Positions 8,297 to 59,939 of a stretch of 59,939 nucleotides of DNA are shown here, one piece after another. The stretch comes from Burkholderiales bacterium. GTDB taxonomy: Bacteria > Pseudomonadota > Gammaproteobacteria > Burkholderiales > Burkholderiaceae_E. The DNA lies in assembly GCA_020248665.1 (NCBI GenBank), contig JADCHE010000098.1, forward strand, positions 1 to 59,939, read 5' to 3'. Below the pieces are notes generated by a model. The model ran no database searches, was not told the DNA's origin, and saw only the letters and a list, made by a program, of their open reading frames with translations. Both the position numbers and the translations under genes were made by a program. Each line of letters opens with the position of its first letter. Position 1 is the first letter of the stretch.

Positions 8297-8299
8297 TCG

Positions 8300-8932: not shown

Positions 8933-8936
8933 GTCG

Positions 8937-10219: not shown

Positions 10220-10232
10220 GCCGGCCCGACCG

Positions 10233-10238: not shown

Positions 10239-10296
10239 CCGCGGCCTTTCCCGACCACTTTCACGTTCCGCCAGGAACGGGAAGGATGCACGCTCC

Positions 10297-12505: not shown

Positions 12506-12535
12506 CGCGCCGCGCATCCGAATCCGGGAGCCCGC

Positions 12536-16227: not shown

Positions 16228-16800
16228 TCACGTCGCCCGACCCGGCAGCAGCCCCTCGACGTCACGCCGCAGCCGCGCGAAGTCGGGCCGCCCGACCCAG
16301 CGCCGCACCACACGGCCATCGGGCGCGACCAGCCAGGTCGTCGGCGTGCCCTCGACGCCGCCCCAGGCGGCGACGGCCGCGCCCAAGGGGTCGAGCGCGA
16401 CCGGGAACGGCAGCCGCCGCGACGACGCGAAGTGCAGCACCCGGTCGGCCCGGTCGTAGGGCATCGCGACCGCGACCAGCTCCAGCCCTCGCGAACGGTA
16501 GGCCTCGTAGACCTCGGTCAGCTCGGGCATCTCGGCGACGCAGACCGCGCAGCTGGTCGCCCAGAAGTTGACCAGCAGCACCCGGCCGGCGAGCGCGTCG
16601 GGGCCGAGCCGGCGACCGTCGATCGTGCGGTACTCGATCGCCGGTGCGACCTCGGGGCCGGACGAGGCGAACCGTAGCGCGCCCCAGCCGGCCACGCCCA
16701 CGACCGACGCACCCGCGAGCGCGAGGCCGAGCGTGCGGCGGCGGGACGCCCCGGTGGGCGACGGCGGGGCGGCGGATCGGGCGGGGGACGGAACGGACAT
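16228..16800 (-). CDS. TlpA-like membrane-anchored thiol:disulfide oxidoreductase
   Basis: A 190-residue thioredoxin-fold protein facing the periplasm, probably a reductant for cytochrome c maturation or another thiol target. The N-terminus has a twin-arginine-like, uncleaved-looking segment (SRRRTLGLALAGASVVGVAGW). The active site is FWATSCAVCVAEMPEL (CxxC about residues 84-87), followed by AMPYDR and a cis-proline loop GTPTTWLVAPDGRVV. The start used begins the membrane segment; the open frame upstream has no better start. It sits 124 bp downstream of the M48 protease gene. ResA/TlpA/AhpC-TSA relatives cannot be separated further from sequence alone. Confidence 0.88.
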   Translation of the reverse strand: MSVPSPARSAAPPSPTGASRRRTLGLALAGASVVGVAGWGALRFASSGPEVAPAIEYRTIDGRRLGPDALAGRVLLVNFWATSCAVCVAEMPELTEVYEAYRSRGLELVAVAMPYDRADRVLHFASSRRLPFPVALDPLGAAVAAWGGVEGTPTTWLVAPDGRVVRRWVGRPDFARLRRDVEGLLPGRAT

Positions 16801-16924
16801 GGCGGCAGCGGCGGCACCCAGTGTAGCGGGACTCGCCCCGCGCGGGCTCCGGTCGCGTCGCGTCCCGACCCGAGCCTGGCCCCGACGCTCCGGGACCCTC
16901 CGGCGCGACCGCTCCCGCAGTCGC

Positions 16925-41300: not shown

Positions 41301-41348
41301 CGGATCTCCTCGTGTCGGGCGCGCGACCGGTCGGCCGCCTTGCGTCCC

Positions 41349-41366
41349 TTAATTCGGATGAATTAA
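41349..41366. promoter_or_regulatory. TetR-type operator in the ADH/tetR intergenic region
   Basis: TTAATTC-GGAT-GAATTAA is a perfect 7-bp inverted repeat with a 4-bp spacer. It stands out as A/T-rich in G/C-rich DNA and overlaps the downstream edge of the ADH promoter -10. The divergently encoded TetR protein is the likely binder (inference). Confidence 0.75.
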
Positions 41367-41390
41367 ATTCTCGAACAGCGCCGCTGTCAA
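41362..41390 (-). promoter_or_regulatory. Strong promoter of the ADH-importer-CYP153 operon
   Basis: On the minus strand, a perfect TTGACA (41385-41390), 17-bp spacer and TTTAAT (41362-41367, 5/6) point into the alcohol dehydrogenase gene, about 60 bp upstream of its start. This is one of the best sigma-70 matches seen in the window. Confidence 0.8.
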
Positions 41391-41404
41391 CGACCCGCCC
41401 CCGG

Positions 41405-42067
41405 ATGCCCGCCGCCGCCCTCGCCCGACCCGCAGACGACACCTCGACCGCGAGCGTGCTGCTCGACGTCGCGGAGCGCCTGTTCGCCGAGCGCGGGATC
41501 GCTTCGGTGTCGCTTCGACAGATCGTCCTGGAGGGCCGCCAGGGCAACCTGTCGGCGGCGCACTACCACTTCGGCTCGCGCGACGCGCTGATCCGCGCGC
41601 TGGTAGAGCGGCGCCTGCGCACGCTCGACGCGCTGCGGCACGCGTGCCTGGACCGGGTCGTCGCAGGCGGCCGCGACGGCGAGCTCTCGGCGGTCGTCGG
41701 CGCGGCGATCGAGCCGCTCGCCGAGGCGGTGGAGCGCACGCCCTGGGGCGCGGACTACGCGCGCGTGCTCGCGCAGGCGCTCTTCGAGACGCGGATGAAG
41801 CTGCTCGACACGGTCGACCCCGAGGTGCTCTCCAGCGTGACGCGCGCGCGTGCGATGGCGCGCCGGCTGCTGCCGCACCTGTCGGACGCGGCGTTCGCGG
41901 GGCGCGTGCGGATCGTGCACCACGAGTCGGCCTATACCGTCGCCCGCTGGATCGTCGAGCACGGCCGGGTCGACGCCGGCAACCGTCGCGCGTACCGCGC
42001 GACGATCCGCGAGACGATCGCGTTCATGGCTGCCGGGCTGGCCGCGCCGGCGGCCCGGGCGGCGTAG
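41405..42067 (+). CDS. TetR family transcriptional regulator
   Basis: A 220-residue TetR-family repressor: the N-terminal HTH is VLLDVAERLFAERGIASVSLRQIVLEG... AAHYHFGSRDALIRALVERR (about residues 14-66), including the family's YHFGSRD/L signature. The C-terminal ligand domain is helical. The ATG used starts 104 bp from the divergent ADH start; a longer frame would begin at 41312 and overlap the operator region. It most likely controls the ADH-importer-CYP153 operon and itself through the TTAATTC repeat. Confidence 0.9.
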   Translation: MPAAALARPADDTSTASVLLDVAERLFAERGIASVSLRQIVLEGRQGNLSAAHYHFGSRDALIRALVERRLRTLDALRHACLDRVVAGGRDGELSAVVGAAIEPLAEAVERTPWGADYARVLAQALFETRMKLLDTVDPEVLSSVTRARAMARRLLPHLSDAAFAGRVRIVHHESAYTVARWIVEHGRVDAGNRRAYRATIRETIAFMAAGLAAPAARAA

Positions 42068-45870: not shown

Positions 45871-46459
45871 TTACCGGTCGGCCTGCCGCAGCAGCGGCGC
45901 CATCGCCCCGAGCGGCGCCACCCCGAGATGGACGGTCGCGCAGGACTCGACGCCGGCCGAGGCCCTCGGCCGCGCCGGGTCGGGCTCGACGATCCGGCGA
46001 AAGCCTCGCCCCACCAGCCCCTCTTCCTGCAGCGCACGCAGCCGCTGGTTCAGCCGCTGGCGCGACACCCCGACCATCGACGCGGGGTCCGCCTGCGACA
46101 GCGTCCGCTCGACCGGCGGCGCGACGCCGGCCCGCGCGTACGCGATCGCCGCGAGCTTCGCGAGGCGGGTGCGCAGCAGCGCGTCCGGCGCGAGCCGGGG
46201 CAGCTCGCCGAGGATCCGGTGGAGCCGCTCCACGGCGAGGACCGCGGGTTCGGTGGAATGCCGCAGGTGCGACGGGTCCGCTGCGCCGATCGCCTCGAGG
46301 GACTGCGTCGGGAGCACCATCGAGGTGACGGTGCCGGCCGCGAGCGCGCTCGCCGAAGGCGCGCTGCAACGGCGCCGGGAGCGGGGCGAACCGATCGTTG
46401 CGGCGCAGCGTCTCGATGGCGGCCGGCCTCAGGGGCGTCGTGGCGGGGCGCGGGGTCAT
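45871..46459 (-). pseudogene. Crp/Fnr-family regulator gene broken by deletion and frameshift
   Basis: An ATG at 46459 opens MTPRPATTPLRPAAIETLRRNDRFAPLPAPLQRAFGERAR, typical of the first 40 residues of Crp-family proteins. The frame then no longer matches. A second frame (from about 46335, open to 45871) gives the dimer helix (TEPAVLAVERLHRILGELP) and the complete Crp-type HTH (RTLSQADPASMVGVSRQRLNQRLRALQEEGLVGRGFRRIV). The cyclic-nucleotide beta barrel of about 80 residues is missing between them. A 149-residue HTH-only protein from ATG 46320 is possible but has no clear ribosome-binding site. Confidence 0.6.
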
Positions 46460-46518: not shown

Positions 46519-47424
46519 TCAGCAGTGCGACGCGTGCCTCGCCTTCATCGTCGCGAGCACCTCGTCCGGGTCGCGCTGCCACCAGTCGCGCGACGAGAAG
46601 ATCTCGCACTCGTGCAGGCCGCGGTAGCCCGCCGCCTCGACGAGGCCGCGCAGCCGGCGCAGGTCGATCACGCCGTCGCCCATCATGCCGCGGTCCTCGA
46701 GCAGGTCGCGCGTCGGCACCAGCCAGTCGCAGACGTGGAAGGCGTGCAGCCGCGCGGCGCCCGCGCGCGCGACCTGCGCGTCGAGGGCAGGGTCCCACCA
46801 CACGTGGTAGACGTCGAGCGCGACGCCGAGCGCCGCGGCCGGTGCCCACGCGCCGCCGTCGGCCGCGGTGCGCGCGTGCACGCCGGCGCCACCGGGGTCG
46901 AGGGCGTCGCACAGCTCGAGCGCCTGGCCGAGCGTGTTCACGCACGCGCGGTCGGCCGCGTACATCGGGTGCAGTGGCTCGATCGCGAGGGGCACGCCCG
47001 CGGCGCGCGCGTGCGGCAGCACCGCGGCGATGCCGTCGCGGACCTGCGCTCGCGCGCCGGCGAGGTCTTTCGAGCCCGCCGGCATGCCGCCCACCACCAG
47101 CACGAGGCACTGCGCACCGAGCTCGGCCGCGTCGTCGATCGCGCGGCGGTTGTCGTCGATCGCGGCGCGCCGACCGGCCTCGTCGGCGGCCGGGAACATG
47201 CCGCCGCGGCACAGGCCTGTGACCGTCAGGCCCGCCGCGCGGATCCGGCGCGCGGCCTCGCCGACGCCGAGCTCGGCGAGCTTGTCTCGCCACGGCGAGA
47301 TGCCGCGGATGCCGTGGCGCGCGCAGCCGTCGATCATCCGCGCGAGGTCCCAGCGGACCTTCACGGTCGCGGTGTTCAGCGACAGCGCGCGCGGATCGGG
47401 CGGGGCGGGACCCGCGGCGCTCAC
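46519..47424 (-). CDS. Sugar phosphate isomerase/epimerase-like TIM-barrel protein
   Basis: A 301-residue xylose-isomerase-like TIM barrel, the family of IolE, inosose isomerases and hydroxypyruvate isomerases. Candidate metal ligands: Glu in LAIEPLHPMY (about residue 152), Asp/His in ALDVYHVWWD, His in LHAFHVCDW and Glu in LHECEIFSS near the C-terminus. The GTG start overlaps the DUF993 stop (GTGA). It is the last gene of a three-gene minus operon with DUF993 and a Gfo/Idh/MocA dehydrogenase, a combination typical of sugar or polyol breakdown. Confidence 0.88.
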   Translation of the reverse strand: MSAAGPAPPDPRALSLNTATVKVRWDLARMIDGCARHGIRGISPWRDKLAELGVGEAARRIRAAGLTVTGLCRGGMFPAADEAGRRAAIDDNRRAIDDAAELGAQCLVLVVGGMPAGSKDLAGARAQVRDGIAAVLPHARAAGVPLAIEPLHPMYAADRACVNTLGQALELCDALDPGGAGVHARTAADGGAWAPAAALGVALDVYHVWWDPALDAQVARAGAARLHAFHVCDWLVPTRDLLEDRGMMGDGVIDLRRLRGLVEAAGYRGLHECEIFSSRDWWQRDPDEVLATMKARHASHC

Positions 47425-48587
47425 GACTCGATCCCGTTGATCGCGAGCAGCGCGCGCATCCGCCCGCACGCGAGGTCGGGATCGCGCAGCAGTCCGGCAG
47501 CGTCGGCGAGGCGGAACAGCTCCGCGAGGTGCAGCACGTGGCGCGCCGACTGCTGGCCGCCGACCATCGTGAAGTGCGACTGCAGGCCGTTCAGCCAGGC
47601 CATGAAGACGACGCCGGTCTTGTAGAAGCGCGTGGGCGCCCGGAAGATGTGCCGCGACAGGGGCACCGTGGGCCCGAGGATGTCGTGAAAGCGCGCGACG
47701 TCGCCGCGGCCGAGCGCAGTGAGCGCGGCCGACGCGGCCGGCGCGATCGCGTCGAAGATGCCGAGCAGCGCGTCGGAGTGGCCGTGCGCGTCGCCGGCGA
47801 TCAGCTCGGCGAAGTTGAAGTCGTCGCCGGTGTACATCCGCACGCCGGGTGCGAGTCGCCGGCGCATCGCGACCTCGCGGTCCTTGTCGAGCAGCGAGAC
47901 CTTGACGCCGTCGATCTTCGCGGCGTTGCGGTTGATCACGTCGACCGCGACGTCGGTCGCCGCGTCGAGGTCCTCGGCGCCCCAGTAGCCGGCGAGCGCC
48001 GGGTCGAACATGTCGCCGAGCCAGTGCACGATGACCGGCTCCCGGACCTGAGAGAGCAGCCGGTCGTAGACCAGGCCGTACTGGTCGGGCGAACGCGCGC
48101 ACGCGGCGAGCGCGCGGCTCGCCATCACGATCAGCCGTCCGCCCAGCCCCTCGATCGCCTCGGCCTGCGCCTCGTACGCGCAGAGCACGTCGGCGACGGT
48201 GGTGCGCGCCTCCGGCACCAGGTGGTCGGTGCCGCAGCCGGAGAAGACGCGCGCGCCGGGATGCGAGCGCGACGCGTCGATCGAACGGCGGATCAGCTCG
48301 AGCGAGGTCGGCCAGTCGAGGCCCATGCCGCGCTGCGCGGTGTCCATCGCCTCGGCGACGCCGAGGCCGAGGTCCCACAGGCGGCTGCGGTAGGCGATCG
48401 TCGCGTCCCAGTCCACCGCGCAGCCGATCCACGGGTCGACGCTCGACATCGGGTCGGCGACGACGTGCACCGCCGAGAACGCGATGCGGTTGAACGGACC
48501 CTGCGCGACGTCCGGGTAGCCGCGCGGCGCGGACGTCGTGAAGGGCGCGAGGCGGCCGTCGGGGGCGGGCAGCGTGATCGTGGGCAT
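47421..48587 (-). CDS. DUF993 family protein (aldolase-like TIM barrel)
   Basis: A 388-residue member of DUF993, related to dihydrodipicolinate-synthase-type lyases. Characteristic stretches are FNRIAFSAVHVVADPMSS, IDWDATIAYR-like VDWDATIAYRSRLWDLGLGVAEAMDTAQRG, VFSGCGTDHL and GVKVSLLDKDREVAMRR, where the Lys of GVKVSLLD could be the Schiff-base residue. No signal peptide. It overlaps the isomerase gene by 4 bp and lies 87 bp after the dehydrogenase gene. It probably cleaves a 2-keto sugar-acid-like intermediate, but no biochemical role is established. Confidence 0.82.
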   Translation of the reverse strand: MPTITLPAPDGRLAPFTTSAPRGYPDVAQGPFNRIAFSAVHVVADPMSSVDPWIGCAVDWDATIAYRSRLWDLGLGVAEAMDTAQRGMGLDWPTSLELIRRSIDASRSHPGARVFSGCGTDHLVPEARTTVADVLCAYEAQAEAIEGLGGRLIVMASRALAACARSPDQYGLVYDRLLSQVREPVIVHWLGDMFDPALAGYWGAEDLDAATDVAVDVINRNAAKIDGVKVSLLDKDREVAMRRRLAPGVRMYTGDDFNFAELIAGDAHGHSDALLGIFDAIAPAASAALTALGRGDVARFHDILGPTVPLSRHIFRAPTRFYKTGVVFMAWLNGLQSHFTMVGGQQSARHVLHLAELFRLADAAGLLRDPDLACGRMRALLAINGIES

Positions 48588-48674: not shown

Positions 48675-49826
48675 TCAGTCCGGCAGCGCGCCGACGTCGA
48701 CCCAGCGGCGCTCCTTCCACGAGCGCAGCCCCGCCTCGACCAGCTGCACGCCCTTTGCGCCCTCGCGCAGGTTCCACGGGAACGGCGTGCCTTCGCAGAC
48801 GTGGCGGATGAAGAGCTCCCACTCGGCCTTGAAGGCGTTGTCGAACACGGTGTACTCGGGCACATCCTGCCAGCCGGCGAGGAAGTCGATCGGCTGCGGC
48901 AGGTCGGGGTTCCACACCGGCTTGGGCGTCGCGACCCGCGGCTGCACCTTGACGCCGCGCAATCCGGCGACCGCCGAGCCGTGCGTGCCGTCGACGTGCA
49001 GCGTCAGCAGGTCGTCGCGCCGCACGCGCGTGACCCACGAGCTGTTGAAGTGCGCGACCACGCCGGTCGCGAGCTCGAAGGTCGCGTAGGCCGCGTCGTC
49101 GGCGGTCGCGTCGTAGGCGTTGCCCTGCTCGTCGATCCGTTTCGGGATGTGCGTCGCGCCGAGGCACGAGACCGCCTTCACCTCGCCGAACAGGTTGTCG
49201 ATCACGTAGCGCCAGTGGCACAGCATGTCGAGGATGATCCCGCCGCCGTCGTCCTTGCGGTAGTTCCAGCTCGGGCGCTGCGCGGGCTGCAGGTCGCCCT
49301 CGAACACCCAGTAGCCGAACTCGCCGCGCACCGACAGGATCCGGCCGAAGTAGCCCGAGTCGATCAGCATCTTCAGCTTCAGCAGGCCGGGCAGCCACAG
49401 CTTGTCCTGCACGACCCCGTGCTTCACGCCCTTCTTCTCGGCCGCGCGCCAGATGCCGAGCGCCTCCTCGAGGTTGGTCGCCGACGGCTTCTCGCAGTAG
49501 ACATGCTTGCCGGCGGCGATCGCCTTGTGCACGAGCGAGGGCCGCATCTGCGTGGTGGCCGCGTCGAAGAACACCTCGTCCTTCGGGTCGGCGAGCGCCG
49601 CGTCGAGGTCGGTGCTCCAGCGCAGCCCGCCGTGCTGCGCCGCGAGCACCTGCATCCGCTCGGCGCCGCGGCCGACCAGGATCGGATCGGGCATCACGCG
49701 GGTGCCGTCGGCGAGACGTACGCCGCCCTGCTCGCGGATCGCCTTCACCGAGCGGATCAGGTGCTGGTTCAGGCCCATGCGGCCGGTGACGCCATGCATC
49801 ACGATGCCGAGTCGACGGGTGCTCAT
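48675..49826 (-). CDS. Gfo/Idh/MocA family oxidoreductase
   Basis: A 383-residue NAD(P)-dependent sugar/inositol dehydrogenase-like protein. The N-terminal Rossmann fold begins [13 protein letters not shown], and the family motif appears as HVYCEKPSA (about residues 107-115). The second domain carries [19 protein letters not shown], with the usual catalytic Asp/His. The start follows GGAGAG about 11 nt upstream; an upstream reading to 49955 would run through the promoter. It is the first gene of the minus operon and lies 83 bp from the TAACC-N4-GGTTA operator. Confidence 0.92.
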
Positions 49827-49909: not shown

Positions 49910-49923
49910 TAACCTGTTGGTTA
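49910..49923. promoter_or_regulatory. Operator A: TAACC-TGTT-GGTTA (Gfo/Idh/MocA side)
   Basis: A perfect 5-bp inverted repeat with a 4-bp spacer, at the predicted transcription start of the leftward promoter. It matches the sites at 49995 and 59266. Confidence 0.75.
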
Positions 49924-49926
49924 ATT

Positions 49927-49955
49927 ATTTTCCGGTCCGGAGACCTCACAGTCAA
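49927..49955 (-). promoter_or_regulatory. Leftward promoter of the Gfo/Idh-DUF993-isomerase operon
   Basis: On the minus strand, TTGACT (49950-49955), a 17-bp spacer and GAAAAT (49927-49932) are followed directly by operator A. The -35 is 5/6, the -10 4/6, in A/T-richer DNA. Confidence 0.6.
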
Positions 49956-49958
49956 CCC

Positions 49959-49987
49959 TTGTCGGGTCCCGGGGCCGGCGATAGCAT
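49959..49987 (+). promoter_or_regulatory. Rightward promoter of the MetE-like operon
   Basis: TTGTCG (49959-49964), a 17-bp spacer and TAGCAT (49982-49987), with operator B starting 7 bp after the -10. It is arranged back-to-back with the leftward promoter, the two -35 elements being 3 bp apart. Confidence 0.6.
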
Positions 49988-49994
49988 CGACTTC

Positions 49995-50008
49995 TCACCG
50001 GTTGGTTA
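49995..50008. promoter_or_regulatory. Operator B: TCACC-GGTT-GGTTA (MetE-like side)
   Basis: This has the same geometry as operator A with one mismatch in the left arm, at the predicted transcription start and 30 bp before the MetE-like ATG. Centres of A and B are 85 bp apart. Confidence 0.65.
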
Positions 50009-50038
50009 ACTCGATCGCAGCGTCCAGGGAGACATCGC

Positions 50039-51043
50039 ATGCCCCGCATCCAGACCACCGTCGTCGGCTCGTACCCCGTGCCCGACTGGCTCGCCGCGCT
50101 GCCGTCCGAGCAGGCGCTCGCCGATGCGACGCGCGTCGTCATCGGCATCCAGGAGCAGGCGGGCATCGACCTGGTCTGCGACGGCGAGCTCTACCGCTTC
50201 GACGTCAACCATCCCGAGACCAACGGGATGATCGAGTACTTCGTGCGGCCGATGGACGGGATCACGCAGCGGTTCTCGTTCGACGAGCTGATCGCCTACC
50301 GCTCCAGCAGTGGCATGAAGTTCCGCACGCGCCCGCCCGGCACGGTCGTGGGCCCGATCGGCTCGGGCGCGCTCGACCTGCCGCTCGCCTGCGCGCGGGC
50401 GCGCGCGCTCGCCTCGAAGCCGTTCAAGTTCACCGTGACCGGCCCGCACATGCTCGCCAAGACGCTGATCGACCGGCACTACGGCACCTTGCCCGACCTC
50501 GCCAACGCGATCGCCGATGCGCTCGCCGAGCAGGTCCGGCACTGCGAGGCCGAAGTCGTGCAGCTCGACGAGGCCAACCTGCCCGGCCATCCCGACGAGT
50601 GGGAGTGGGCCGCGGCGGCGATCAACCGCGTGCTCGACGCGGTGCCCGGCAAGGGCGCGGTACACCTGTGCTTCGGCAACTACGGCGGGCAGTCGGTGCA
50701 GAAGGGCACCTGGGACCGGCTGATGCGCTACCTGAACGCGCTGCACGCCGACCACGTGGTGATGGAGGTCGCGCACCGTCCGCCCGAGGAACTGGCGGCG
50801 TTCCGCGAGCTGAAGCCCGAGATCGGCTTCGGCCTCGGCGTCGTCGACATCAAGGCGAACGAGGTCGAGTCGCCCGAGAGCATCGCCCGCGCGATCGAGC
50901 GCGCCGAGAAGACGCTCGGCGCGGGCCGCGTGAAGTACGTGCACCCGGACTGCGGCTTCTGGATGCTGAAGCGGCCGATCGCCGACGCGAAGATCCGGGC
51001 GATGCCGAAGGGGCGCGACCTGTACGAGCGGGCGGGCGCGTGA
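50039..51043 (+). CDS. MetE-like (cobalamin-independent methionine synthase C-terminal-type) protein
   Basis: A 334-residue single-domain protein of the UROD/MetE-like TIM-barrel family. The N-terminus is TTVVGSYPVPDW, and the zinc ligands of MetE catalytic domains can be placed: His and Cys in VHLCFGNYGG (about residue 208), Glu in HVVMEVAHR (about 242) and Cys in VHPDCGFWMLKR (about 304). It lacks the N-terminal MetE half, so it likely transfers a methyl or other alkyl group to an unknown thiol, or acts as a dealkylase, rather than being the housekeeping MetE. AGGGAG precedes the start. It overlaps the next gene by 4 bp (GTGA). Confidence 0.88.
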   Translation: MPRIQTTVVGSYPVPDWLAALPSEQALADATRVVIGIQEQAGIDLVCDGELYRFDVNHPETNGMIEYFVRPMDGITQRFSFDELIAYRSSSGMKFRTRPPGTVVGPIGSGALDLPLACARARALASKPFKFTVTGPHMLAKTLIDRHYGTLPDLANAIADALAEQVRHCEAEVVQLDEANLPGHPDEWEWAAAAINRVLDAVPGKGAVHLCFGNYGGQSVQKGTWDRLMRYLNALHADHVVMEVAHRPPEELAAFRELKPEIGFGLGVVDIKANEVESPESIARAIERAEKTLGAGRVKYVHPDCGFWMLKRPIADAKIRAMPKGRDLYERAGA

Positions 51044-52080
51044 GCGGACTGCCTGAGGGCTTCGCCGACGAGGCCGCGCTCGAGGACTTCATGACGGCGC
51101 CCTCGCCGGCGCTTGCGGCCGACCTCGCGCGCGCACCCGGCGACATCCTGGTGCTCGGCGTCGGCGGCAAGATGGGCCCGACGCTCGCGCGGATGGCGAA
51201 GCGTGCGGTGCCCGACCGGCGCGTGATCGCGGTCGCCCGCTTCTCGGACAAGGCGCTTCCGGACACGCTGCACGCGCACGGCGTCGAGCCGGTGGCCTGC
51301 GACCTGCTCGACCGCGCGGCACTCGAACGCCTGCGCGACGCGACGCCCACCGCGACCAACGTCGTCTTCATGGCCGGCCACAAGTTCGGCGCGTCGGGCA
51401 ACGCGTCGTTCACCTGGGCGATGAACGTCGGCGTGCCGGCGATGGTCGCCGAGACCTTGCGCGACCGACGCATCGTGTCGTTCTCGACCGCCTGCGTCTA
51501 TCCGTTCGTGCCGGTCGACGGACCGGGCGCGCCCGAGTCGACCGAGGCGGTGCCGCCGCCTGGCGACTACGCGTGGTCGTGCGTCGGCCGCGAGCGGGCG
51601 TTCGAGCACGGCTCGCGGACCTGGGGCACGCCGGGACGGATGGTGCGGCTCTCCTACGCGATCGACATGCGCTACGGCGTGCTGCGCGACGTCGCCGACG
51701 CGGTGTTCCACGGCCGACCGCTCGACCTCGCGATGGGCTTCGCCGACGTGATCTGGCAGGGCGACGCGAACGAGCAGGCGCTGCGGCTGCTCGCGCACTG
51801 CACGGCGCCGGCCTCGCCGATCAACGTGACCGGGCCGTCGCACACCTCGATCCGCTGGCTCGCCGGCGAGTTCGGCCGCCGCTTCGGACGCGCGCCGGTG
51901 CTGACGGGTACCGAGGCACCGACCGCGTGGCTCGTCGACACCACCGAGGCGCAGCGGCTGTTCGGTGCGCCCCGCGTGCCGATCGACGCGATGATCGACT
52001 GGGTCGCCGACTGGGTCGCGCGCGGCGGCGCGAGCCTCGGCAAGCCGACGCACTTCGAGACGCGCGATGGGAAGTACTGA
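51040..52080 (+). CDS. NAD(P)-dependent epimerase/reductase-like protein
   Basis: A 346-residue extended-SDR-like protein. The Rossmann loop is LVLGVGGKMGPTLARMAKRA (about residues 37-56, GxGGxMG), followed by VIAVARFSD and an acidic ACDLLD. The catalytic region reads FSTACVYPF (Y-x-F in place of the usual YxxxK). A C-terminal substrate domain ends in a helix (MIDWVADWVARGG). The GTG start overlaps the MetE-like stop. Part of the rightward operon; a sugar- or polyol-derived substrate is inferred from the neighbouring genes. Confidence 0.85.
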   Translation: MSGLPEGFADEAALEDFMTAPSPALAADLARAPGDILVLGVGGKMGPTLARMAKRAVPDRRVIAVARFSDKALPDTLHAHGVEPVACDLLDRAALERLRDATPTATNVVFMAGHKFGASGNASFTWAMNVGVPAMVAETLRDRRIVSFSTACVYPFVPVDGPGAPESTEAVPPPGDYAWSCVGRERAFEHGSRTWGTPGRMVRLSYAIDMRYGVLRDVADAVFHGRPLDLAMGFADVIWQGDANEQALRLLAHCTAPASPINVTGPSHTSIRWLAGEFGRRFGRAPVLTGTEAPTAWLVDTTEAQRLFGAPRVPIDAMIDWVADWVARGGASLGKPTHFETRDGKY

Positions 52081-52978
52081 GGCCGACGGGCCGGAGCCCG
52101 TCGCGCATCCGCTCGGCACCGCCTATCTCGACGGGCTGCTCGCGCTGTCGCGCTCGGCGAACTGGAACCAGGACGCGGACGACTGGCGCCACATGCTGTC
52201 CGCGGGCCGCGGCTGGGGGCTGTCGGCGCCGGACGGCACGCTGCTCGCATCGACGGTCGCGCTGCCGTATCGCGCGGCCGCGACGCCGTTCGCCTGGGTC
52301 AGCATGGTGCTCGTGCTGCCGGAGCACCGCCGGCGCGGCTTCGCGTCGCGGCTGCTGCGCGAGGCGCTCTCGTGGCTGGACGGCGAGCACCTGCTGCCGG
52401 TGCTCGACGCGACGCCCGACGGGCATCCGGTCTACCGGCGCGAGGGTTTCGTCGACACCTGGGGCTTCGCTCGACACGCGCGTGCGGCCGGCGTGACCGC
52501 CGATGCGCCGTACTCAACCGCCCCCACGGGCGTGCGCATCGAGCCTCTGCGCGACGCGCACCGAGGCGCGCTGCGCGCGCTCGACGCGCGCGCGTTCGGC
52601 GGCGATCGCGACGCGCTGCTCGGCGCGCTCGCGGCGCGGCTGCCCGCGGCCGCCCGCGTCGCGCTGCGCGGCGACGCGGTGGTCGGCTTCGCGCTGGGCC
52701 GCCCGGGCCGCGTCGCCACGCAGCTCGGGCCGCTGGTGGCCGCCGAGGCCGCGACCGCCGTCGCGCTGCTCGACGCCGCGCTCGAGGCGGTGCCCGGCCC
52801 TGTCTTCGTCGACGTGCCCGACGCGCAGCCGGCGATGCGCGAGGCGCTCGCGGCGCGCGGCTTCGCGTTCCAGCGACCGTTCGTGCGTCTGGTGCACCCG
52901 GGGCGTCACGCGGCGGCCCCCGAGGCGCCGGGCGAGGCGTCGATCGTGAGGCTCGTCGCCGGGCCCGAGCTCGGCTGA
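52067..52978 (+). CDS. GNAT family N-acetyltransferase, two-domain
   Basis: A 303-residue acetyltransferase with an N-terminal GNAT domain (WVSMVLVLPEHRRRGFASRLLREAL, the acetyl-CoA loop with RRRGFA, about residues 78-102) and a second, degenerate GNAT-like C-terminal domain (about residues 150-285: RALDARAFGGDRDALLGALAARLP... VGFALGRPGRVATQLGPLVAAEAATAVALLDAAL), as in the YitH/HolE-type proteins. It overlaps the epimerase-like gene by 14 bp and is the last gene of the rightward operon. Target unknown. Confidence 0.85.
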   Translation: MGSTEADGPEPVAHPLGTAYLDGLLALSRSANWNQDADDWRHMLSAGRGWGLSAPDGTLLASTVALPYRAAATPFAWVSMVLVLPEHRRRGFASRLLREALSWLDGEHLLPVLDATPDGHPVYRREGFVDTWGFARHARAAGVTADAPYSTAPTGVRIEPLRDAHRGALRALDARAFGGDRDALLGALAARLPAAARVALRGDAVVGFALGRPGRVATQLGPLVAAEAATAVALLDAALEAVPGPVFVDVPDAQPAMREALAARGFAFQRPFVRLVHPGRHAAAPEAPGEASIVRLVAGPELG

Positions 52979-53245
52979 GTCGCGGACAGGACGTGTCGAG
53001 CCGGGCGATCCCGGCCCGTGCGTCGCGACCCGTGCCCCTGAACGGTACGGCGCCGCCGCGACGGCCCGCTCCGCGATCGGCGCGCCGGGCCCGGTCGTCC
53101 GACCGCCCGCCCCCTCGGCGCCGCCGCCGATCGAGAAGCGCGGCCGCGGCCCCGCTGTTCCGAAGACCGCACGACCGGGGCGGGTCGCACCGTTGCGGGT
53201 ACGTAGGCGTTTTCCGACAACGAAACCTCGCTCTCCATCCGTCCG

Positions 53246-54379
53246 ATGCCCGCACCCACGTCCGTGCCCCCGTCCCCGCCCGCCGCGCAGCCCGCGCGCA
53301 GCCCGTCCGCGACGCCCGCGCCTGGGGACGCGTGCCCCGCCACCGAGCTCCCGCGTGCGGGACCGTCCGGCGCGATCGACGGCACCGCCGAACTGCTGCG
53401 CCGCACGCTGCCGCTGATGTCCCGCCACGCGGCCAGCTACGCGCCCGACTCGTACGAGCTCTGGTACGAGTACGTCCGCGGCGGCAACCCGGAGCTGCGC
53501 GCGGACCTCGACGCGCTGGTCAACACCTGCGAGCGGCTGTCGCACCAGCTGACCTTCGAGCTGCACCGGAAGCACCTCGCCGACAGCAGCGAGGAGACGA
53601 CCCGCAGGGCCGGCGCGGGCCTGCTCGAGCTGATGCACACGGTGCGCAGCTCGGTCGAGGCCGCGAGCTCCAAGGCGACCGAGTTCGACGCCCAGCTCGC
53701 CGCGTTCGGGGAGGGCATCGCGTCGGCCGGCTCGGCGGAGGACATGCGCGAGCACGTCGACACGATGCGTGGCGACGTCGACCGGATGAACCGCTCGCTG
53801 TCGACGCTGAACGACCGGCTCGAGGCGAGCCACCGCGAGGTCGGGCGGCTGCAGACCGAGCTCAAGCGCGCGCGCGACGAGGCCTCGCACGACCCGCTGT
53901 CGGGCATCCTGAACCGGCGTGGCTTCGACGCCGAGATCCGCAGGATCTGCGCGGCGGCCGCGCAGGACGACTCGCCGTTCAGCGTCGTGATGATCGACAT
54001 CGACCACTTCAAGCGGGTCAACGACTCCTACGGCCATCCGTTCGGCGACCAGGTGATCCGCGCGGTGGGCCAGGTGCTGTCGCAGCTGACGCAGCGCAAG
54101 GACGTCGCCGCGCGCTACGGCGGCGAGGAGTTCGCACTGCTGCTGCCCGACACCGCGGCGGACGGCGCACGCGACGTCGCCGAGCGGCTGCGCTCGGCGA
54201 TCGCGCGGGGCCACATCAAGCGCGGCAACGGCGGCGAGCCGGTCGGCAACATCACGATCTCGGCCGGCGTCGCGCAGTTCGTGCGCGGCGAGGACCCGAT
54301 GTCGCTGATCGCGCGCGCCGATCGCGCGCTCTACGTGTCGAAGCAGTCCGGCCGCAACCGCGTGACCGTCGACCGCTGA
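53246..54379 (+). CDS. Diguanylate cyclase (GGDEF protein)
   Basis: Makes cyclic di-GMP from two GTP. The 377-residue cytoplasmic protein has a Pro/Ala-rich N-terminal tail, a helical region (about residues 45-110: LLRRTLPLMSRHAASYAPDSYELWYEYVRGGN), a coiled coil (about 130-205) and a GGDEF domain (about 215-377) with DPLSGILNRRGFD and RYGGEEFALLLPD, the active form GGEEF. The product-inhibition site RxxD is not intact: the sequence before the active site reads QRKD, so feedback inhibition may be lost. No membrane segment. The preceding 267-bp gap shows no gene. Confidence 0.93.
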   Translation: MPAPTSVPPSPPAAQPARSPSATPAPGDACPATELPRAGPSGAIDGTAELLRRTLPLMSRHAASYAPDSYELWYEYVRGGNPELRADLDALVNTCERLSHQLTFELHRKHLADSSEETTRRAGAGLLELMHTVRSSVEAASSKATEFDAQLAAFGEGIASAGSAEDMREHVDTMRGDVDRMNRSLSTLNDRLEASHREVGRLQTELKRARDEASHDPLSGILNRRGFDAEIRRICAAAAQDDSPFSVVMIDIDHFKRVNDSYGHPFGDQVIRAVGQVLSQLTQRKDVAARYGGEEFALLLPDTAADGARDVAERLRSAIARGHIKRGNGGEPVGNITISAGVAQFVRGEDPMSLIARADRALYVSKQSGRNRVTVDR

Positions 54380-54394
54380 GCCGGCGCGCGGCGT

Positions 54395-56962
54395 TCAACG
54401 CGCCTCGCCGCGGCCGCGCGGCTTGGCCTGTGCGAAGAGCGTCTCGGCCCGCTTCACGTCCTCCTCGGACAGCCGCGTGACCTGCGCGATCGCGAGCCGC
54501 ACCTCGTCCGACAGCAGCCACGGCGCGTCGTCCGCCGCGTCGACCAGCGCGCCGCCGAACGCGAGCCGGCCGTCGACGGGGCGCACCCAGCCGAGCGTGC
54601 CGAGCGTCGCGATGATCGAACGGAACGAGCCGCGGTCGAAGAACTCCGGCGAGCCGGACTCGTGCAGGAACGCCATCCGCTGCGCGAGCAGGAAGCACAG
54701 GTCCTCGAGCGCCTTCGGCGACAGCGCGCCCGAGCCCTGCCCGGTCAGCACCGACAGCACGATGAACCAGCGCTCGAGCGGCTGGCGCATCAGCTGCGCG
54801 AGCACGTGCAGCGCGGTCGAGTCGCGGGGCGCGCCGGGCGCGCCGACGAGCCCGAGCGCGTCGAACGCGTCGAGGCAGGCGTCGACCTTCGCCGGCAGCG
54901 CCCGGGCGTCCCAGGACAGGAACAGCTCGGCGCGCAGGAACGGGAACACCCGCGACGCCACCGCGAGCAGGCGCTCGCGCCCGATGCCCGGATGGCGCGA
55001 CAGCAGCGTCGCGAGCAGCGCCGGCAGCGCCCACGCGTGGAGCACGTTGTTGCGGAAGTAGGCGAGCAGCGCGACCTGCGTGCCGTGGACCTGCAGCACG
55101 TCGCCGAGCGGGTGCGCGATCCGCCACAGCAGCCCGGTGCGCTCCGCCTGCTCGACGATCTCGGTGCCCGACATCGACACGACGACCAGCCGCGACGAGT
55201 ACGGCGCGCGCACCAGCAGCTCGCGCAGCAGGTCGAGGTGGCGGGCCAGCTGCACGGCGTCCATCGCGTGACGCGGCGAGCCGAGCATCGCGACCGAGAC
55301 CAGGTTGACCGGATTGACGACGACCGCGTCGTTGATCCGCGTGACGATCTCCAGCGCGAGCGCGTCGATCGCCTCGCGCCGCGTCGCGTCGGCCTTCGCG
55401 ATCGCGGCCGCGGCGCGCGCGGGCGTGGTCGACGGTGGCGTCGCGCCCGGGTCGGCCGCGGGCGCCGCGCCGTGCGCCGCCATGAACGGCCCGAGCGCGA
55501 TCGGATCGCCGACGTTCACATGCACGCGCCCGAAATGCTCGCGCAGCCTGCGCAGCGAGCGCACGAGACCGAGCAGCGACTCCTTCTGCTTCGGCCGCCC
55601 CGACAGCTCGGCGACGTAGGTGTCCCCCTCGAGCAGCCGCTCGTAGCCGATGTAGACCGGCACGAACACCAGCGGCCGGTTCGGCGAGCGCAGCCAGCTC
55701 TCGACGGTCATCGCGAGCAGCCCGGCCTTCGGCGTCAGCGTGCGGCCGGTGCGGCTGCGGCCGCCCTCGACGAAGTACTCGATCGGGAACCCGCGCGCGA
55801 TCATCGCGTGCAGGTATTCGGCGAACACCGCGGCGTACAGCGCGTCGCCGCGGAAGCTGCGGCGCAGGAAGAACGCGCCGCCGCGGCGCAGCAGGCCACC
55901 GACCACCGGCAGGTTCAGGTTCGCGCCCGCGGCCACGTGCGGCGGCGGCAGTCCCTGGTAGTAGATCAGGAACGACAGCAGCAGGTAGTCGATGTGGCTG
56001 CGGTGGCACGGCACGTAGACCACGGTCGCGTCCGAGGCGATTCGGCGCAGCGCGTCGAGCCGCGTCGCCGAGATGCCATCGTAGAGCCGGTTCCACAGCA
56101 GCTGCAGGCCGAGATCGAACGCCCGGATGAACGGATACGAGTAGTTGGACGCGATCTCCCACGCGGCGCGCCGCGCGGTCGCCTCGGCCCGGTCGCGGCC
56201 CGCCCCGCGCGTACGCGCCTCCTCGTCGATCGCCGCCTGCACCGGCCCGCCGGCGATCACCGCGTTGATCAGCACGTGCCGGTGCGACAGGTCCGGACCG
56301 ACCACGCGTTCGCGGACCCGTCGGTACTGCGCGCGCAGCAGGCGCGCGGCGCGGCGCACCGCGTGCATGTCGTCGTCGGCGTCGTCGACCATCGCGCGCA
56401 GCGACATCGGCTCGCCGAACTCGATCATCGACTGCCGCCCGTGCACCAGCACGCGCGCGACCTGGCGCAGCGCGCCGGGGATCGCCCAGCCCTCGGAGAG
56501 CAGCGCCTTCAGCACCGAGTCCTGGTTGCGCGGCGCGCGGCCCCAGAACACGTGGACCGGTACGATCGTCACGTCGGCGGCCGGGTCGGCACGGACCGCC
56601 GCGGCGAGGCGCTCCAGGCGCGGCGCATAGGCATACGGCCGCGTCGCGAGCGGCGACGGCTGGCCGTCGCGGGTCAGGTAGAAGAACGAGTGCGACTCGG
56701 CGGCGACCTGCGTGCCGTCGGAGCCGGCCGGGGCGAGCGGCGCGAGCGGCAGCGGCAGCCCGAGCCGGCGCACCTGCTCGTCGAGCACCACCAGCGAGGT
56801 CAGCGAACGGAACTGCAGCGCCCAGCAGACCGGCGTGCCGCGATCGAGCGTCGCCGCGAGCGCGTCGGCGCCGACCACCTGCACGTCCACCCAGCGCCGC
56901 AGCAGCGGCTGCAGCAGCGCGATCGCGAGCCGCCCCAGCGGTGACGCGCCAGGCGGCTTCAA
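54395..56962 (-). CDS. plsB: Glycerol-3-phosphate 1-O-acyltransferase
   Basis: Acylates glycerol-3-phosphate, the first step of phospholipid synthesis, at the inner membrane. The 855-residue enzyme has all four acyltransferase motifs: PCHRSHIDYLL (H-x4-D, about residues 314-324), GAFFLRRSFRGD, FVEGGRSRTGR and VFVPVYIGYERL. The best start is a TTG that overlaps the DUF2855 stop (TTGA); there is no ATG at the N-terminus. This couples plsB translation to the upstream operon, an unusual setting for this gene. A start further in, at GTG in RRWVDVQ, cannot be excluded. Confidence 0.93.
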   Translation of the reverse strand: MKPPGASPLGRLAIALLQPLLRRWVDVQVVGADALAATLDRGTPVCWALQFRSLTSLVVLDEQVRRLGLPLPLAPLAPAGSDGTQVAAESHSFFYLTRDGQPSPLATRPYAYAPRLERLAAAVRADPAADVTIVPVHVFWGRAPRNQDSVLKALLSEGWAIPGALRQVARVLVHGRQSMIEFGEPMSLRAMVDDADDDMHAVRRAARLLRAQYRRVRERVVGPDLSHRHVLINAVIAGGPVQAAIDEEARTRGAGRDRAEATARRAAWEIASNYSYPFIRAFDLGLQLLWNRLYDGISATRLDALRRIASDATVVYVPCHRSHIDYLLLSFLIYYQGLPPPHVAAGANLNLPVVGGLLRRGGAFFLRRSFRGDALYAAVFAEYLHAMIARGFPIEYFVEGGRSRTGRTLTPKAGLLAMTVESWLRSPNRPLVFVPVYIGYERLLEGDTYVAELSGRPKQKESLLGLVRSLRRLREHFGRVHVNVGDPIALGPFMAAHGAAPAADPGATPPSTTPARAAAAIAKADATRREAIDALALEIVTRINDAVVVNPVNLVSVAMLGSPRHAMDAVQLARHLDLLRELLVRAPYSSRLVVVSMSGTEIVEQAERTGLLWRIAHPLGDVLQVHGTQVALLAYFRNNVLHAWALPALLATLLSRHPGIGRERLLAVASRVFPFLRAELFLSWDARALPAKVDACLDAFDALGLVGAPGAPRDSTALHVLAQLMRQPLERWFIVLSVLTGQGSGALSPKALEDLCFLLAQRMAFLHESGSPEFFDRGSFRSIIATLGTLGWVRPVDGRLAFGGALVDAADDAPWLLSDEVRLAIAQVTRLSEEDVKRAETLFAQAKPRGRGEAR

Positions 56963-58125
56963 GTCGGATCGGGCGCCAGCACGTGCCCCTGCTCGGGGCG
57001 GCCGCGACCATCGACGAGCTCGCGCCAGACTCGAACGACATCGGCCGGGCCGCGGCCCTCGACGACCGTCATCCAGCCACCGTCGCCCCGCAGCTTCGCC
57101 GAGAACGCGTCGCGCGCCTCGGACTGGCGCGCCATGAAGCCGGCCGCGCCCCAGTCTGCCTCGCGCTTCTTCCAGCGCGCGGGCGCGAAGAACATCGTCG
57201 GCTTCGGCCCGGGCAGCGGCGCGGGGGCTGCACCGTCGGGGCGGCGTCGGCCGACGCCCTCCTCCCAGCGCGTGAGCCCCACCGCGCAGTCGTGGCGCAA
57301 CGCGTCGCCGAGCCGGCGGTGCACGCGCTCGCGCAGTCCCGCGTCGCCCGACATGTCGACGTAGACGGTCGGCACGTCGGCCTCGAGCCGTTCGGCGTCC
57401 GCGTAAGCGAGCACGCGGTCGTAGCAGCCCAGTCGCTCGACGAAACCGACGTTGGCCGGCGAGGTGAGGCCGACGACCTCGACCGCCTGCGGCGTGCCGC
57501 GCCGGCGCGCGAGCAGGAACGCGGTCGCGTAGGCGGTCTTGCTGGACGCGCTCGCGAGCACGACCCGGCGCGCGCTGAAGAAGCCCTCGTCGGCGAGGAA
57601 GTCGTCGATGAGGAACGCGGTGGTGAACAGCGGCCGCAGCAGCATCGCCTCGGCCTCGGACGCCGCGCGCGCCACCGCATCCTGGCCCGGCTGCTCGCGC
57701 ACGCGCACGTAGGTGTTGTAGACCGGCGAGAGCCCGTGCCGGTGCGCGGCGCCGTCGACGAAGCCCTGCGCGCCGGCCGCGGCGGGCTCGACGACGAGGT
57801 GCGTCGACATCGGCAGGAACCCGTAGAAGCGATCGCCGAGCGCGACGCCCGGATGCGAGGACGCGACTGCGGTCGCGAAGCCCCAGACCGGCACGCGCCC
57901 CCAGCCCTCGGGCGCCGGGAAGAAGCGCCAGTACTCGAGGTGCGGCACGTCGCCGCAGGCCCCGTAGGTGACATTGTTCGCGGTCAGCGCGAAGCGCTCG
58001 ATCCGCAGCACCGCGCGGCCCGGCTCGAGACCGGTCGCGCCCGGCACGGGCGATTCGATGACGCGCACGTCCCGCAGATCGGCTCGGCGGACCTGGACGT
58101 CGAGGGCGATCGGGGCGGCGCTCAC
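56959..58125 (-). CDS. DUF2855 family protein
   Basis: A 388-residue protein of the DUF2855 family, distantly related to medium-chain dehydrogenases. It has LRIERFALTANNVTYGACGD near the N-terminus, a Rossmann-like central part (RRVVLASASSKTAYATAFLLARR... VEVVGLTSPANVGFVERLGCYD, about residues 185-235) and ends with a helix. No zinc ligands of the alcohol-dehydrogenase type are seen. The GTG start overlaps the binding-protein stop (GTGA), and its own stop overlaps the plsB start. Function unknown. Confidence 0.85.
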   Translation of the reverse strand: MSAAPIALDVQVRRADLRDVRVIESPVPGATGLEPGRAVLRIERFALTANNVTYGACGDVPHLEYWRFFPAPEGWGRVPVWGFATAVASSHPGVALGDRFYGFLPMSTHLVVEPAAAGAQGFVDGAAHRHGLSPVYNTYVRVREQPGQDAVARAASEAEAMLLRPLFTTAFLIDDFLADEGFFSARRVVLASASSKTAYATAFLLARRRGTPQAVEVVGLTSPANVGFVERLGCYDRVLAYADAERLEADVPTVYVDMSGDAGLRERVHRRLGDALRHDCAVGLTRWEEGVGRRRPDGAAPAPLPGPKPTMFFAPARWKKREADWGAAGFMARQSEARDAFSAKLRGDGGWMTVVEGRGPADVVRVWRELVDGRGRPEQGHVLAPDPT

Positions 58126-59132
58126 CTGGTCATCTTCACGGAGCGGTCGAGGAACTCGTTCGTGTACACCGACTTCACGTCGAACGGCTTGTCGATGCCG
58201 ATGTACTCGCGCACCAGCTCGTAGTCGGCCTTCATCCGGCCGTCCTCGTGGATGCCGAGCGCCGTCTCGCGCGCGAACCGGTCGCTCATCAGCACCTCGA
58301 CCAGCTTCCAGTTGGTGAGCTCGTTGTCGAACTTGAGCGCGCCGTTCGCCTCGACCAGCGCCTGCACGCACGGGTTGGGCTGCGCGACGCAGGCCGCGAA
58401 CGCACGCTGCGTGACCTTGACGAACCGGTCCACCAGCGGCCGGTTCTTCGCGAGGAACTCGGCGTTGACGACGATCGAGTTGCCGTAGGGGTTCAGGCCC
58501 GCGTCGCGCCACGCGAGGAAGCCCATGTCGTCGCCGAGCTCGGCCTGGAAGATGTGGTGGATGTTGTAGAACGAGGTGGTCGCGTCGATCGACTTGGCCT
58601 TCAGCGCCGAGAGCTTCGCGTTCGCGTCGATGTTGACCCAGGTCACCGACTTCGGATCGATGCCGTTGGCCCTGGCGAGCGCCGGCCACATCGTGCGCGC
58701 GCCGTCGGCCGCGGGGTTGCCGATCTTCTTGCCGACCAGATCCTTCACCGACTTGATGCCCGAGCTCTTCAGCCAGTACAGGCCCTGCGGCGAGTTCGCA
58801 TAGACGTTGTAGACCGCGACCAGGTCCGCGCCCTTGCCCTTGGCGACCAGCACGCCGCCCATGTCGGCCAGGCCGATCGGGTTCGCGCCGGCGCCGACCT
58901 TCTGCGTCGCGAGCGCCGAGCCGCGGCCGGGCTCGAGGTTCAGGTCGATGCCTTCCTTGGCGTACCAGCCCTGCTTCTTCGCGAAGTAGTACGGCGCGTG
59001 ATCGCCGCCCGGCACCCAGTTGAGGATGAAGTCGATCTTCGTCTGGGCGTTCGCCGCGATCGGTGCGAACGCGGCCGCGCAGGCCAGCGCGAGCGTGGCC
59101 GCCGCGCCCGTGAATCGGTTGCTCAGTGCCAT
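58122..59132 (-). CDS. ABC transporter substrate-binding protein, NMT1/THI5-like
   Basis: A 336-residue periplasmic binding protein with a signal peptide (AATLALACAAAFAPIAANAQ). The mature domain has KIDFILNWVPGGDHAPYYFAKKQGWYAKEGIDLNLEPGRGS, the NMT1/THI5-like pattern, then DLVGKKIGNPAADGARTMWPALARANGID. Relatives bind hydroxymethylpyrimidine-type thiamine precursors, riboflavin or aromatic acids. It is the first gene of the operon with DUF2855 and plsB; no permease or ATPase accompanies it within the window. GGACGGAG precedes the start. Confidence 0.9.
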   Translation of the reverse strand: MALSNRFTGAAATLALACAAAFAPIAANAQTKIDFILNWVPGGDHAPYYFAKKQGWYAKEGIDLNLEPGRGSALATQKVGAGANPIGLADMGGVLVAKGKGADLVAVYNVYANSPQGLYWLKSSGIKSVKDLVGKKIGNPAADGARTMWPALARANGIDPKSVTWVNIDANAKLSALKAKSIDATTSFYNIHHIFQAELGDDMGFLAWRDAGLNPYGNSIVVNAEFLAKNRPLVDRFVKVTQRAFAACVAQPNPCVQALVEANGALKFDNELTNWKLVEVLMSDRFARETALGIHEDGRMKADYELVREYIGIDKPFDVKSVYTNEFLDRSVKMTR

Positions 59133-59189
59133 CTCCGTCCCTCTCCCTGTCTCGTGGAACCGTGCCGCGGGCAGCGTCGCGCGGGGTCC

Positions 59190-59206
59190 GGTCGATGGTA
59201 TCGACC
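59190..59206. promoter_or_regulatory. Operator-like inverted repeat at the binding-protein promoter
   Basis: GGTCGAT-GGT-ATCGACC, a perfect 7-bp inverted repeat with a 3-bp spacer, covers the predicted -10 of the leftward promoter. It differs in sequence from the TAACC-N4-GGTTA sites. Confidence 0.55.
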
Positions 59207-59224
59207 GGTTTCCGAGGGTGTCAA
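59195..59224 (-). promoter_or_regulatory. Leftward promoter of the binding protein-DUF2855-plsB operon
   Basis: On the minus strand, a perfect TTGACA (59219-59224), an 18-bp spacer and TACCAT (59195-59200), 62 bp upstream of the start codon. Confidence 0.6.
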
Positions 59225-59237
59225 CGCTGCCCGGCCG

Positions 59238-59266
59238 TTGACGCTCCCGGACCCTTCGATTAAGTT
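59238..59266 (+). promoter_or_regulatory. Rightward promoter of the dihydrodipicolinate-synthase-family gene
   Basis: TTGACG (59238-59243), a 17-bp spacer and TAAGTT (59261-59266; weak, 3/6), running directly into operator C. The -35 is good; the -10 is the poorest of the set. Confidence 0.5.
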
Positions 59267-59279
59267 AACCGGATGGTTA
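59266..59279. promoter_or_regulatory. Operator C: TAACC-GGAT-GGTTA
   Basis: A perfect 5-bp inverted repeat with a 4-bp spacer, same arms and spacing as operator A, 27 bp before the ATG of the lyase-family gene. It overlaps the last base of the -10, so binding would block transcription. Confidence 0.75.
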
Positions 59280-59306: not shown

Positions 59307-59939
59307 ATGGCGCTGCACCGCTCGGAGCTGCTCCCGGACGTGCTCGCGCTGCTGCGCCGGGGCACGGTGATCCCCGCCCATCCGCTCGCGCTCGACGCGT
59401 CGCGCAGGCTCGATGCGCGACGCCAACGGGCACTGACGCGGTACTACGTCGACGCCGGCGCCGGCGGTCTCGCCGTCGGGGTGCACGCGACCCAGTTCGC
59501 GATCCGCGAGGTCGGACTCTACGAACCGGTGCTGCGGCTTGCGATCGAGTCGGCACGCGCTTGGACGCGGCGGCCCGTGGTGATGATCGCCGGCCTGTCG
59601 GGCCGCACCGCGCAGGCGGTCGCCGAGGCGCGGACCGCGGTCGCGCTCGGCTACCACTGCGGCATGCTCTCGCTCGCGCCGATGAAGGGCGAGCCGGTCG
59701 ACGCGCTGGTCGCGCACTGCGCGGCGGTCGCGGCCGAGATCCCGCTGGTGGGCTTCTACCTTCAGACGGCGGTCGGCGGCATCCCGCTGCCCGCGGCGTT
59801 CTGGCAGCGCTTCGCCGCGATCGACAACGTCGTCGCGATCAAGATCGCGCCCTTCGACCGCTACGCGACGCTCGACGTCGCGCGCGGCGTCGTCGCCGCC
59901 GGCGCCGACGAGCGCGTGACGCTCTACACCGGCAACGAC
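59307..59939 (+). CDS. Dihydrodipicolinate synthase/N-acetylneuraminate lyase-family protein (3' partial)
   Basis: The first 211 residues of a Schiff-base TIM-barrel lyase; the frame is still open at the window edge. It has VIPAHPLALDASRRLDARRQ, then AGGLAVGVHATQF. The catalytic Tyr lies in VGFYLQTAVGG (about residue 150), and the Schiff-base Lys in VAIKIAPFDRYAT (about residue 173). The family's substrate-loop Thr-Thr is replaced (HATQF), so it is not a standard DapA; a sugar-acid or related aldolase/dehydratase is more likely. Operator C places it in the same predicted regulon as the Gfo/Idh/MocA-DUF993 operon at 46.5-49.8 kb. Confidence 0.9.
   Translation, partial: MALHRSELLPDVLALLRRGTVIPAHPLALDASRRLDARRQRALTRYYVDAGAGGLAVGVHATQFAIREVGLYEPVLRLAIESARAWTRRPVVMIAGLSGRTAQAVAEARTAVALGYHCGMLSLAPMKGEPVDALVAHCAAVAAEIPLVGFYLQTAVGGIPLPAAFWQRFAAIDNVVAIKIAPFDRYATLDVARGVVAAGADERVTLYTGND

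Follow-up and report, generated by a model that had tools for sequence, protein, structure and literature searches.

BkaR, a TetR-family protein of Mycobacterium, is described in the excerpts of the published report as an autoregulated repressor of nearby catabolic genes, with binding shown by experiment (PMC3920632). According to the same excerpts, the BkaR dimer binds a palindrome with the 16-bp core GTTA(N)T(N4)A(N)TAAC, which is present both in the promoter of BkaR and in those of its targets, and there are few sites per genome (PMC3920632). BkaR turned up in a literature search combining TAACC, GGTTA, TetR family and operator, in which no title concerned the system described here. I analyzed a 59,939-nucleotide stretch of DNA from a Burkholderiales bacterium (contig JADCHE010000098.1, hereafter the window), which is the entire contig C217 and ends inside a dapA gene. 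It contains three copies of the inverted repeat TAACC-N4-GGTTA. Judging from sequence comparisons, these repeats very probably serve as operators for a single TetR/AcrR-family repressor that also controls its own gene; the repressor gene is at C100:11052-11726 (locus L088) in the same genome. Like BkaR, the predicted system has an autoregulated TetR protein, a nearby catabolic gene set, a palindrome in the regulator's own and the target promoters, and few sites, here deduced by computation. Unlike BkaR, it has another operator core and occurs in other bacteria, and the BkaR genes are, in those excerpts, for branched-chain keto-acid metabolism. I regard the control system as a new example of a familiar type, the local catabolic repressor.

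A preliminary description of the window had picked out the repeats at 49910, 49995 and 59266 by eye. A motif scan of the window returned exactly these coordinates and mismatch counts. In 100 shuffles of the window, the mean number of matches at up to one mismatch was 0.04 vs the 3 seen, and no shuffle gave three matches. The repeats are as follows.

49910-49923, operator A, TAACCTGTTGGTTA, TAACC-N4-GGTTA with 0 mismatches; upstream of the minus-strand Gfo-DUF993-isomerase genes, whose -10 hexamer ends 3 bp before A
49995-50008, operator B, TCACCGGTTGGTTA, 1 mismatch (TCACC-N4-GGTTA); 7 bp past the MetE-side -10 and upstream of the plus-strand MetE-like-epimerase-GNAT genes
59266-59279, operator C, TAACCGGATGGTTA, 0 mismatches; between the divergent dapA gene (plus strand) and solute-binding protein (SBP) gene (minus strand), at the end of the dapA -10 region

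It had also been proposed that a promoter with a 17-bp spacer runs into each repeat. This is the case at A and B, while the spacer at C is 16 or 17 nt according to the -10 hexamer chosen. The promoters around the repeats are listed below; among those flanking A, B and C, a simple promoter scanner found only that of A, plus the SBP promoter.

49927-49955, minus strand, promoter of the Gfo operon, TTGACT-17-GAAAAT, found by the simple scanner
49959-49987, plus strand, promoter of the MetE-like operon, TTGTCG-17-TAGCAT, missed by the simple scanner
59238-59266, plus strand, dapA promoter region, TTGACG followed by TTAAGT (16 nt) or TAAGTT (17 nt, by eye), missed by the simple scanner
59224-59195, minus strand, promoter of the SBP gene, TTGACA-18-TACCAT, found by the simple scanner; outside operator C and about 40 bp from it

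Is this arrangement kept in relatives? On the MetE side, eight regions have a site, that of the window among them, and in all eight exactly 7 bp separate the end of the -10 hexamer from the site; the spacer is 17 nt in seven and 18 nt in one. On the Gfo side, the -10 hexamer ends 2-3 bp before the site in the regions compared, and the promoter layout is shared by L036 and L037 (17-nt spacer) and by L040-L043 and L123 (18 nt). Of the 16 dapA-side rows that have a site or variant, 13 show TTGACG and a 16-17-nt spacer running into it; L132, L161 and L196 depart from this layout. The SBP promoter is resembled in several relatives. The promoter script accepted -10 ends between 12 bp ahead of the site and 2 bp within it, and spacers of 16-18 nt. 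Single scores carry little weight given this narrow range, and it is the constancy of the spacing that is telling.

The motif itself was found at up to one mismatch in 7 of 8 MetE/Gfo regions and in 10 of 15 DapA/SBP regions of relatives, where the best of 29 sets of arms made of the same letters reached 1 and 0, respectively. The window, three duplicate loci and three loci of genus g4 were dropped from these sets, and close relatives were kept. In 64 tetR upstream regions thinned by similarity, the motif occurred in 19 vs 2 for control arms. When all 9216 palindromes (1024 arms x gaps of 0-8) were surveyed over 87 regions, the top two were TTAAC-N6-GTTAA (39) and TAACC-N4-GGTTA (36), which are parts of one word; the third-ranked palindrome (26) was GC-rich. 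In 80 named TetR loci (L120-L199, partly redundant), there were 58 sites at up to one mismatch, distributed over 36 loci, vs 17 with the pattern reversed and 1 with another control. In genus g8 (L040, L041), the parts are adjacent, without the genes that separate them in the window: dapA, a site and the SBP gene, and GNAT-epimerase-MetE, two sites and Gfo-DUF993-isomerase. Site C of L141, L144, L148, L161 and L172 reads TCACC-N4-(G/A)GTGA, both arms being changed in step, as expected for the site of a dimer; the variant in L144, L161 and L172 was sought with a pattern composed after viewing the sequences. In related Burkholderiales, the positions and the -35/-10 spacing are thus often preserved, and the loss of conservation put forward beforehand as a refuting result did not occur.

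The regulator had been expected just downstream of the window, as a LacI-, GntR- or IclR-type protein. It was found that a TetR-family gene lies near the same gene set in L040, L041, L045, L050 and L055 (Pfam for three of the five). A search of 101 genomes with the L040 regulator as query gave a protein of 75% identity in the window's own genome, at C100:11058-11669, and a DapA search located the remainder of the truncated dapA at C100:2-448. The ends of C217 and C100 have 10 bp in common, and one dapA gene is split between the two contigs, its parts overlapping at residues 209-211. Since the same-genus locus L120 keeps tetR-tctC-tctA-enolase-ATPase on a single contig, in the order of C100, the join of the two contigs is supported. 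The predicted location was therefore right, the gene lying on the contig that continues dapA, but not the predicted family. The N-terminus of the protein matches TetR_N (PF00440) with 53.6 bits vs a cutoff of 24, and its C-terminal ligand/dimer domain matches TetR_C_29 (PF17938) with 164.3 bits vs 26.2; no LacI, GntR or IclR helix-turn-helix (HTH) was found in this site-linked regulator by Pfam, which matched TetR families only. The closest solved chains in a sequence search with the TetR profile, 3npi and 2d6y, are labelled simply as TetR-family regulatory proteins, and the search gave no ligand or operator for them. The features of C100 (L088) are as follows.

10982-10995, site D, 1 mismatch, upstream of tctC
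11729-11742, site E, 1 mismatch, 2 bp before the predicted tetR start codon
11052-11726, TetR/AcrR-family regulator
9935-10936, TctC
7930-9432, TctA
between the enolase-like gene and TctA, an alpha/beta-hydrolase-like protein, then a cytochrome c
2005-3438, enolase-like protein
about 1232-2008, ABC ATPase
471-1238, ABC permease
11799-13499, amidohydrolase

By sequence, sites A-E are palindromes in target promoters and in that of tetR itself, as is taken to characterize operators of the TetR family.

The regulator and the sites also go together across genomes. There were 47 TetR matches in 36 of the 101 genomes, and 30 were fetched as loci, some shortened by contig ends. A site lies within 1.5 kb in 7 of the 14 loci whose TetR is at least 64% identical to the own one (own included), vs none of the 16 loci at 49-56%. 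The recognition helix has NKR in 14/14 of the former and 0/16 of the latter, which are mostly SSER paralogues. A TetR homologue of at least the 64% level exists in 14 of the 101 genomes (two as fragments at contig ends), and DUF993 is present in 13 of these 14. In G029, G037 and G050 of genus g4, the gene order is kept, the TetR relatives are just 51-53% identical, and no site with up to two mismatches was found in either gap. Same-position conservation, the linked TetR homologue and this joint absence in three genomes of one genus support the idea of a single repressor with operators over the transcription starts.

I infer the following scheme. The TetR dimer on TTAACC-N4-GGTTA would cover the first transcribed bases directly behind the -10, and would block the Gfo-DUF993-isomerase, MetE-like-epimerase-GNAT and dapA-ABC transporter operons. 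The two further operators on C100, ahead of the tetR start codon and of tctC, may provide autoregulation and control of tctC. A pathway substrate or intermediate might bind the C-terminal domain of TetR and release the repressor, so that enzymes and transporters would be made together. The inducer of TetR would point to the pathway substrate. It is unlikely that the protein is an activator or a mixed regulator and not a simple repressor: the 85-89 bp distance between A and B shared by the window, L036, L037, L040, L041 and L043, and the location of operator C upstream of the SBP promoter, a possible activator position, might suit such a role, but at the Gfo, MetE and dapA promoters, operators A, B and C come immediately after the -10 or overlap it, as would suit a block to transcription.

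The coherent catabolic set of three units seen in the window was supported, and it is larger than first claimed, also including tctC and tetR. Site C had been assigned to a DapA-family lyase; dapA does lie downstream, and a divergent NMT1-type SBP gene on the minus strand can be added on the other side. Forty open reading frames (ORFs) of the window were scanned with Pfam.

48675-49826, minus strand, Gfo/Idh/MocA oxidoreductase (Pfam and structure-homologue search)
47421-48587, minus strand, DUF993 protein (solved homologue 4dnh, uncharacterised)
46519-47424, minus strand, xylose-isomerase-like TIM-barrel protein (Pfam and structure-homologue search)
50039-51043, plus strand, MetE-like protein (Meth_synt_2 catalytic domain only)
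51040-52080, plus strand, NAD-dependent epimerase/dehydratase (Pfam)
52067-52978, plus strand, GNAT acetyltransferase (Pfam)
59307-59939, plus strand, DapA-family protein, N-terminal 211 aa (Pfam DHDPS, 22.6 bits, cutoff 22.1; remainder at C100:2-454)
58122-59132, minus strand, NMT1/THI5-like SBP (Pfam), divergent from dapA
56959-58125, minus strand, DUF2855 protein (Pfam), behind the SBP gene also in L121, L105, L106 and L117
41312-42067, TetR_C_30-type regulator (Pfam)
45871-46320, Crp-type HTH protein of 149 aa (Pfam)

The DUF2855 gene is probably co-transcribed with the SBP gene. As had been noted, there is no LacI- or GntR-type regulator among the 40 ORFs, but the last two proteins of the list are other DNA-binding proteins. 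Both are encoded within 10 kb of sites A and B, and the TetR_C_30 gene is near the locus in L036 and L037 too, so that one of them could be imagined to own the sites. This is very improbable, as no site adjoins either regulator gene in the window and the sites persist in loci without them: among 100 loci (some duplicates, most of about 20 kb), L036 and L037 alone matched the TetR_C_30 protein (E up to 1e-10), and no locus matched the Crp-type protein. Owing to this near absence from the relatives' loci, the regulators at 41312 and 45871 were rejected as the repressor. LacI-, GntR- and IclR-type regulators often control sugar-type genes, and one of them, encoded outside the assembled contigs, could be supposed to bind the sites. 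An IclR-like gene (by eye) is indeed near the locus copy in L047, but L047 belongs to a genus without the sites, the linked and co-conserved regulator is of the TetR family, and its recognition helix tracks the presence of sites; I give such a regulator hardly any weight. That the palindromic repeats are due to chance is next to inconceivable: short ones are frequent, the search was by eye and the whole-genome counts in relatives do not exceed the control, but the TAACC word tops the 9216 palindromes, the -10 spacing is fixed, both arms change together, sites and regulator are absent together, and conservation at the same positions, the finding that would speak against chance, was obtained.

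Counting the motif over whole genomes, as the preliminary description proposed, gave a clean result in the own genome (5.07 Mb) only. Allowing one mismatch, the motif has 8 places there vs 3 for the backwards pattern; the only 2 perfect ones lie in the window, and 5 of the 8, including both perfect places, belong to this gene set. The pattern TTAAC-N6-GTTA, picked after inspecting sites D, E and relatives, matches 5 places of the own genome when one mismatch is allowed, all in the set, vs 11 and 13 rows for the reversed control. A looser pattern, TNACC-N4-GGTNA, gave 16 places in the own genome with just 3 in this set, and was discarded as too loose.

Several observations weigh against the autoregulated TetR repressor as proposed. 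Three one-mismatch places of the own genome are outside the set (genes named by eye).

C13, between FolE2-like and peroxidase-like genes
C33, inside a carA-like gene
C147, near a LysR/TauD-like pair

In 17 relatives, the perfect motif has 20 places vs 18 for its reversal; cluster genes account for 11 of the 20, and 8 are elsewhere, with G021:C91 left aside. TTAAC-N6-GTTA at up to one mismatch, counted over cluster and other places together, falls below its control in 9 of 9 relatives searched, so its result in the own genome is not general. As the relatives' counts by themselves are not clearly above control, whole-genome counts were dropped as proof and the footprints were relied upon, because position, not count, separates signal from chance. 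No site at up to one mismatch was found in 44 of the 80 named TetR loci, and none within two mismatches in 31 of the 64 tetR upstream regions, in part at loci where the end of tetR abuts the ATPase gene. In G021, a 71% identical TetR and the genes (L055) are present, with no site at up to one mismatch in 20 kb; L148 has the TetR and no MetE/Gfo site within two mismatches. The change in both arms of site C may be one event in related loci, L141 and L148 being nearly identical. The proposed join of C217 to C100 rests on 10 bp, the split dapA and the gene order. It is doubtful that the SBP gene is under the control of operator C, because its own promoter is about 40 bp away.

The chances seem about even that a new TetR subgroup, widespread in Burkholderiales, governs a new DUF993-based catabolic pathway and that its operators reveal a specificity code. 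The subgroup was found in Variovorax, Pseudacidovorax, Rubrivivax and Lautropia-like bacteria, and the system is present in many Variovorax genomes. A site with up to two mismatches is present in 33 of the 64 tetR upstream regions. Those with the helix NKRML have A as the second letter in both arms (7/7), those with NKRLI (mostly Variovorax) have C as the second letter in at least one arm (24/24), and those with NKRMI have TAACC...GGATA (2/2). Such a code could not be strict, because one arm of site B carries C in the NKRML group, and shared ancestry could also explain the pattern.

The pathway is probably the breakdown of a sugar-like or sugar-acid compound. The closest solved structures for the DUF993, Gfo and isomerase proteins (4dnh, 3oqb, 3qc0, 3ju2 and 7vpf) are uncharacterised or generically named, and weaker matches for Gfo include scyllo-inositol and L-glucose dehydrogenases. 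For the enolase-like protein, the amidohydrolase and the epimerase, no solved structure matched at cutoffs of 0.001, 1e-20 and 1e-4. The open-licence papers searched contained nothing on the function of the set and no mention of DUF993 or PF06187. In Sinorhizobium meliloti SMc04130-SMc04133, 3ju2 (SMc04130) is homologous to the window isomerase, SMc04132 may correspond to 4dnh, the solved DUF993 homologue, and SMc04133 may be the Gfo protein. A table in a PhaR paper lists SMc04132 as "uncharacterized" and SMc04133 as "putative oxidoreductase", with no function given there (PMC12542648). A predicted TetR regulator and its operators are now named and testable for a gene set centred on DUF993 (PF06187). 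A regulon drawn by eye from raw sequence can thus be right, including the location of an unseen regulator.

Some further sites and regulators were noticed. A perfect site, TAACCGTCTGGTTA, occurs at G006:C68:92004 (L116) and G008:C57:1911 (L107), both same-genus, off the known cluster genes; it is possible that these places mark a further target. L046 has a single one-mismatch match, inside the epimerase gene. A second TetR protein of the own genome, at G000:C10:17792-18394, is about 50% identical to the L040 regulator. In the window, the TetR_C_30 gene at 41312-42067 is divergent from a zinc-type alcohol dehydrogenase gene (40215-41300), with an NMT1-type binding protein behind, and these genes probably form a local control unit of their own. 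At 149 aa, the Crp-type HTH protein (45871-46320) is apparently short for a full Crp-family regulator. The IclR-like gene of L047 lies at 16749-17558. The MetE/Gfo regions of L047 and L048, from a genus without this TetR, have the palindromes TGACTGGC-N5-GCCAGTCA and GACTGACGG-A-CCGTCAGTC near the MetE start, which perhaps reflect a replacement regulator.

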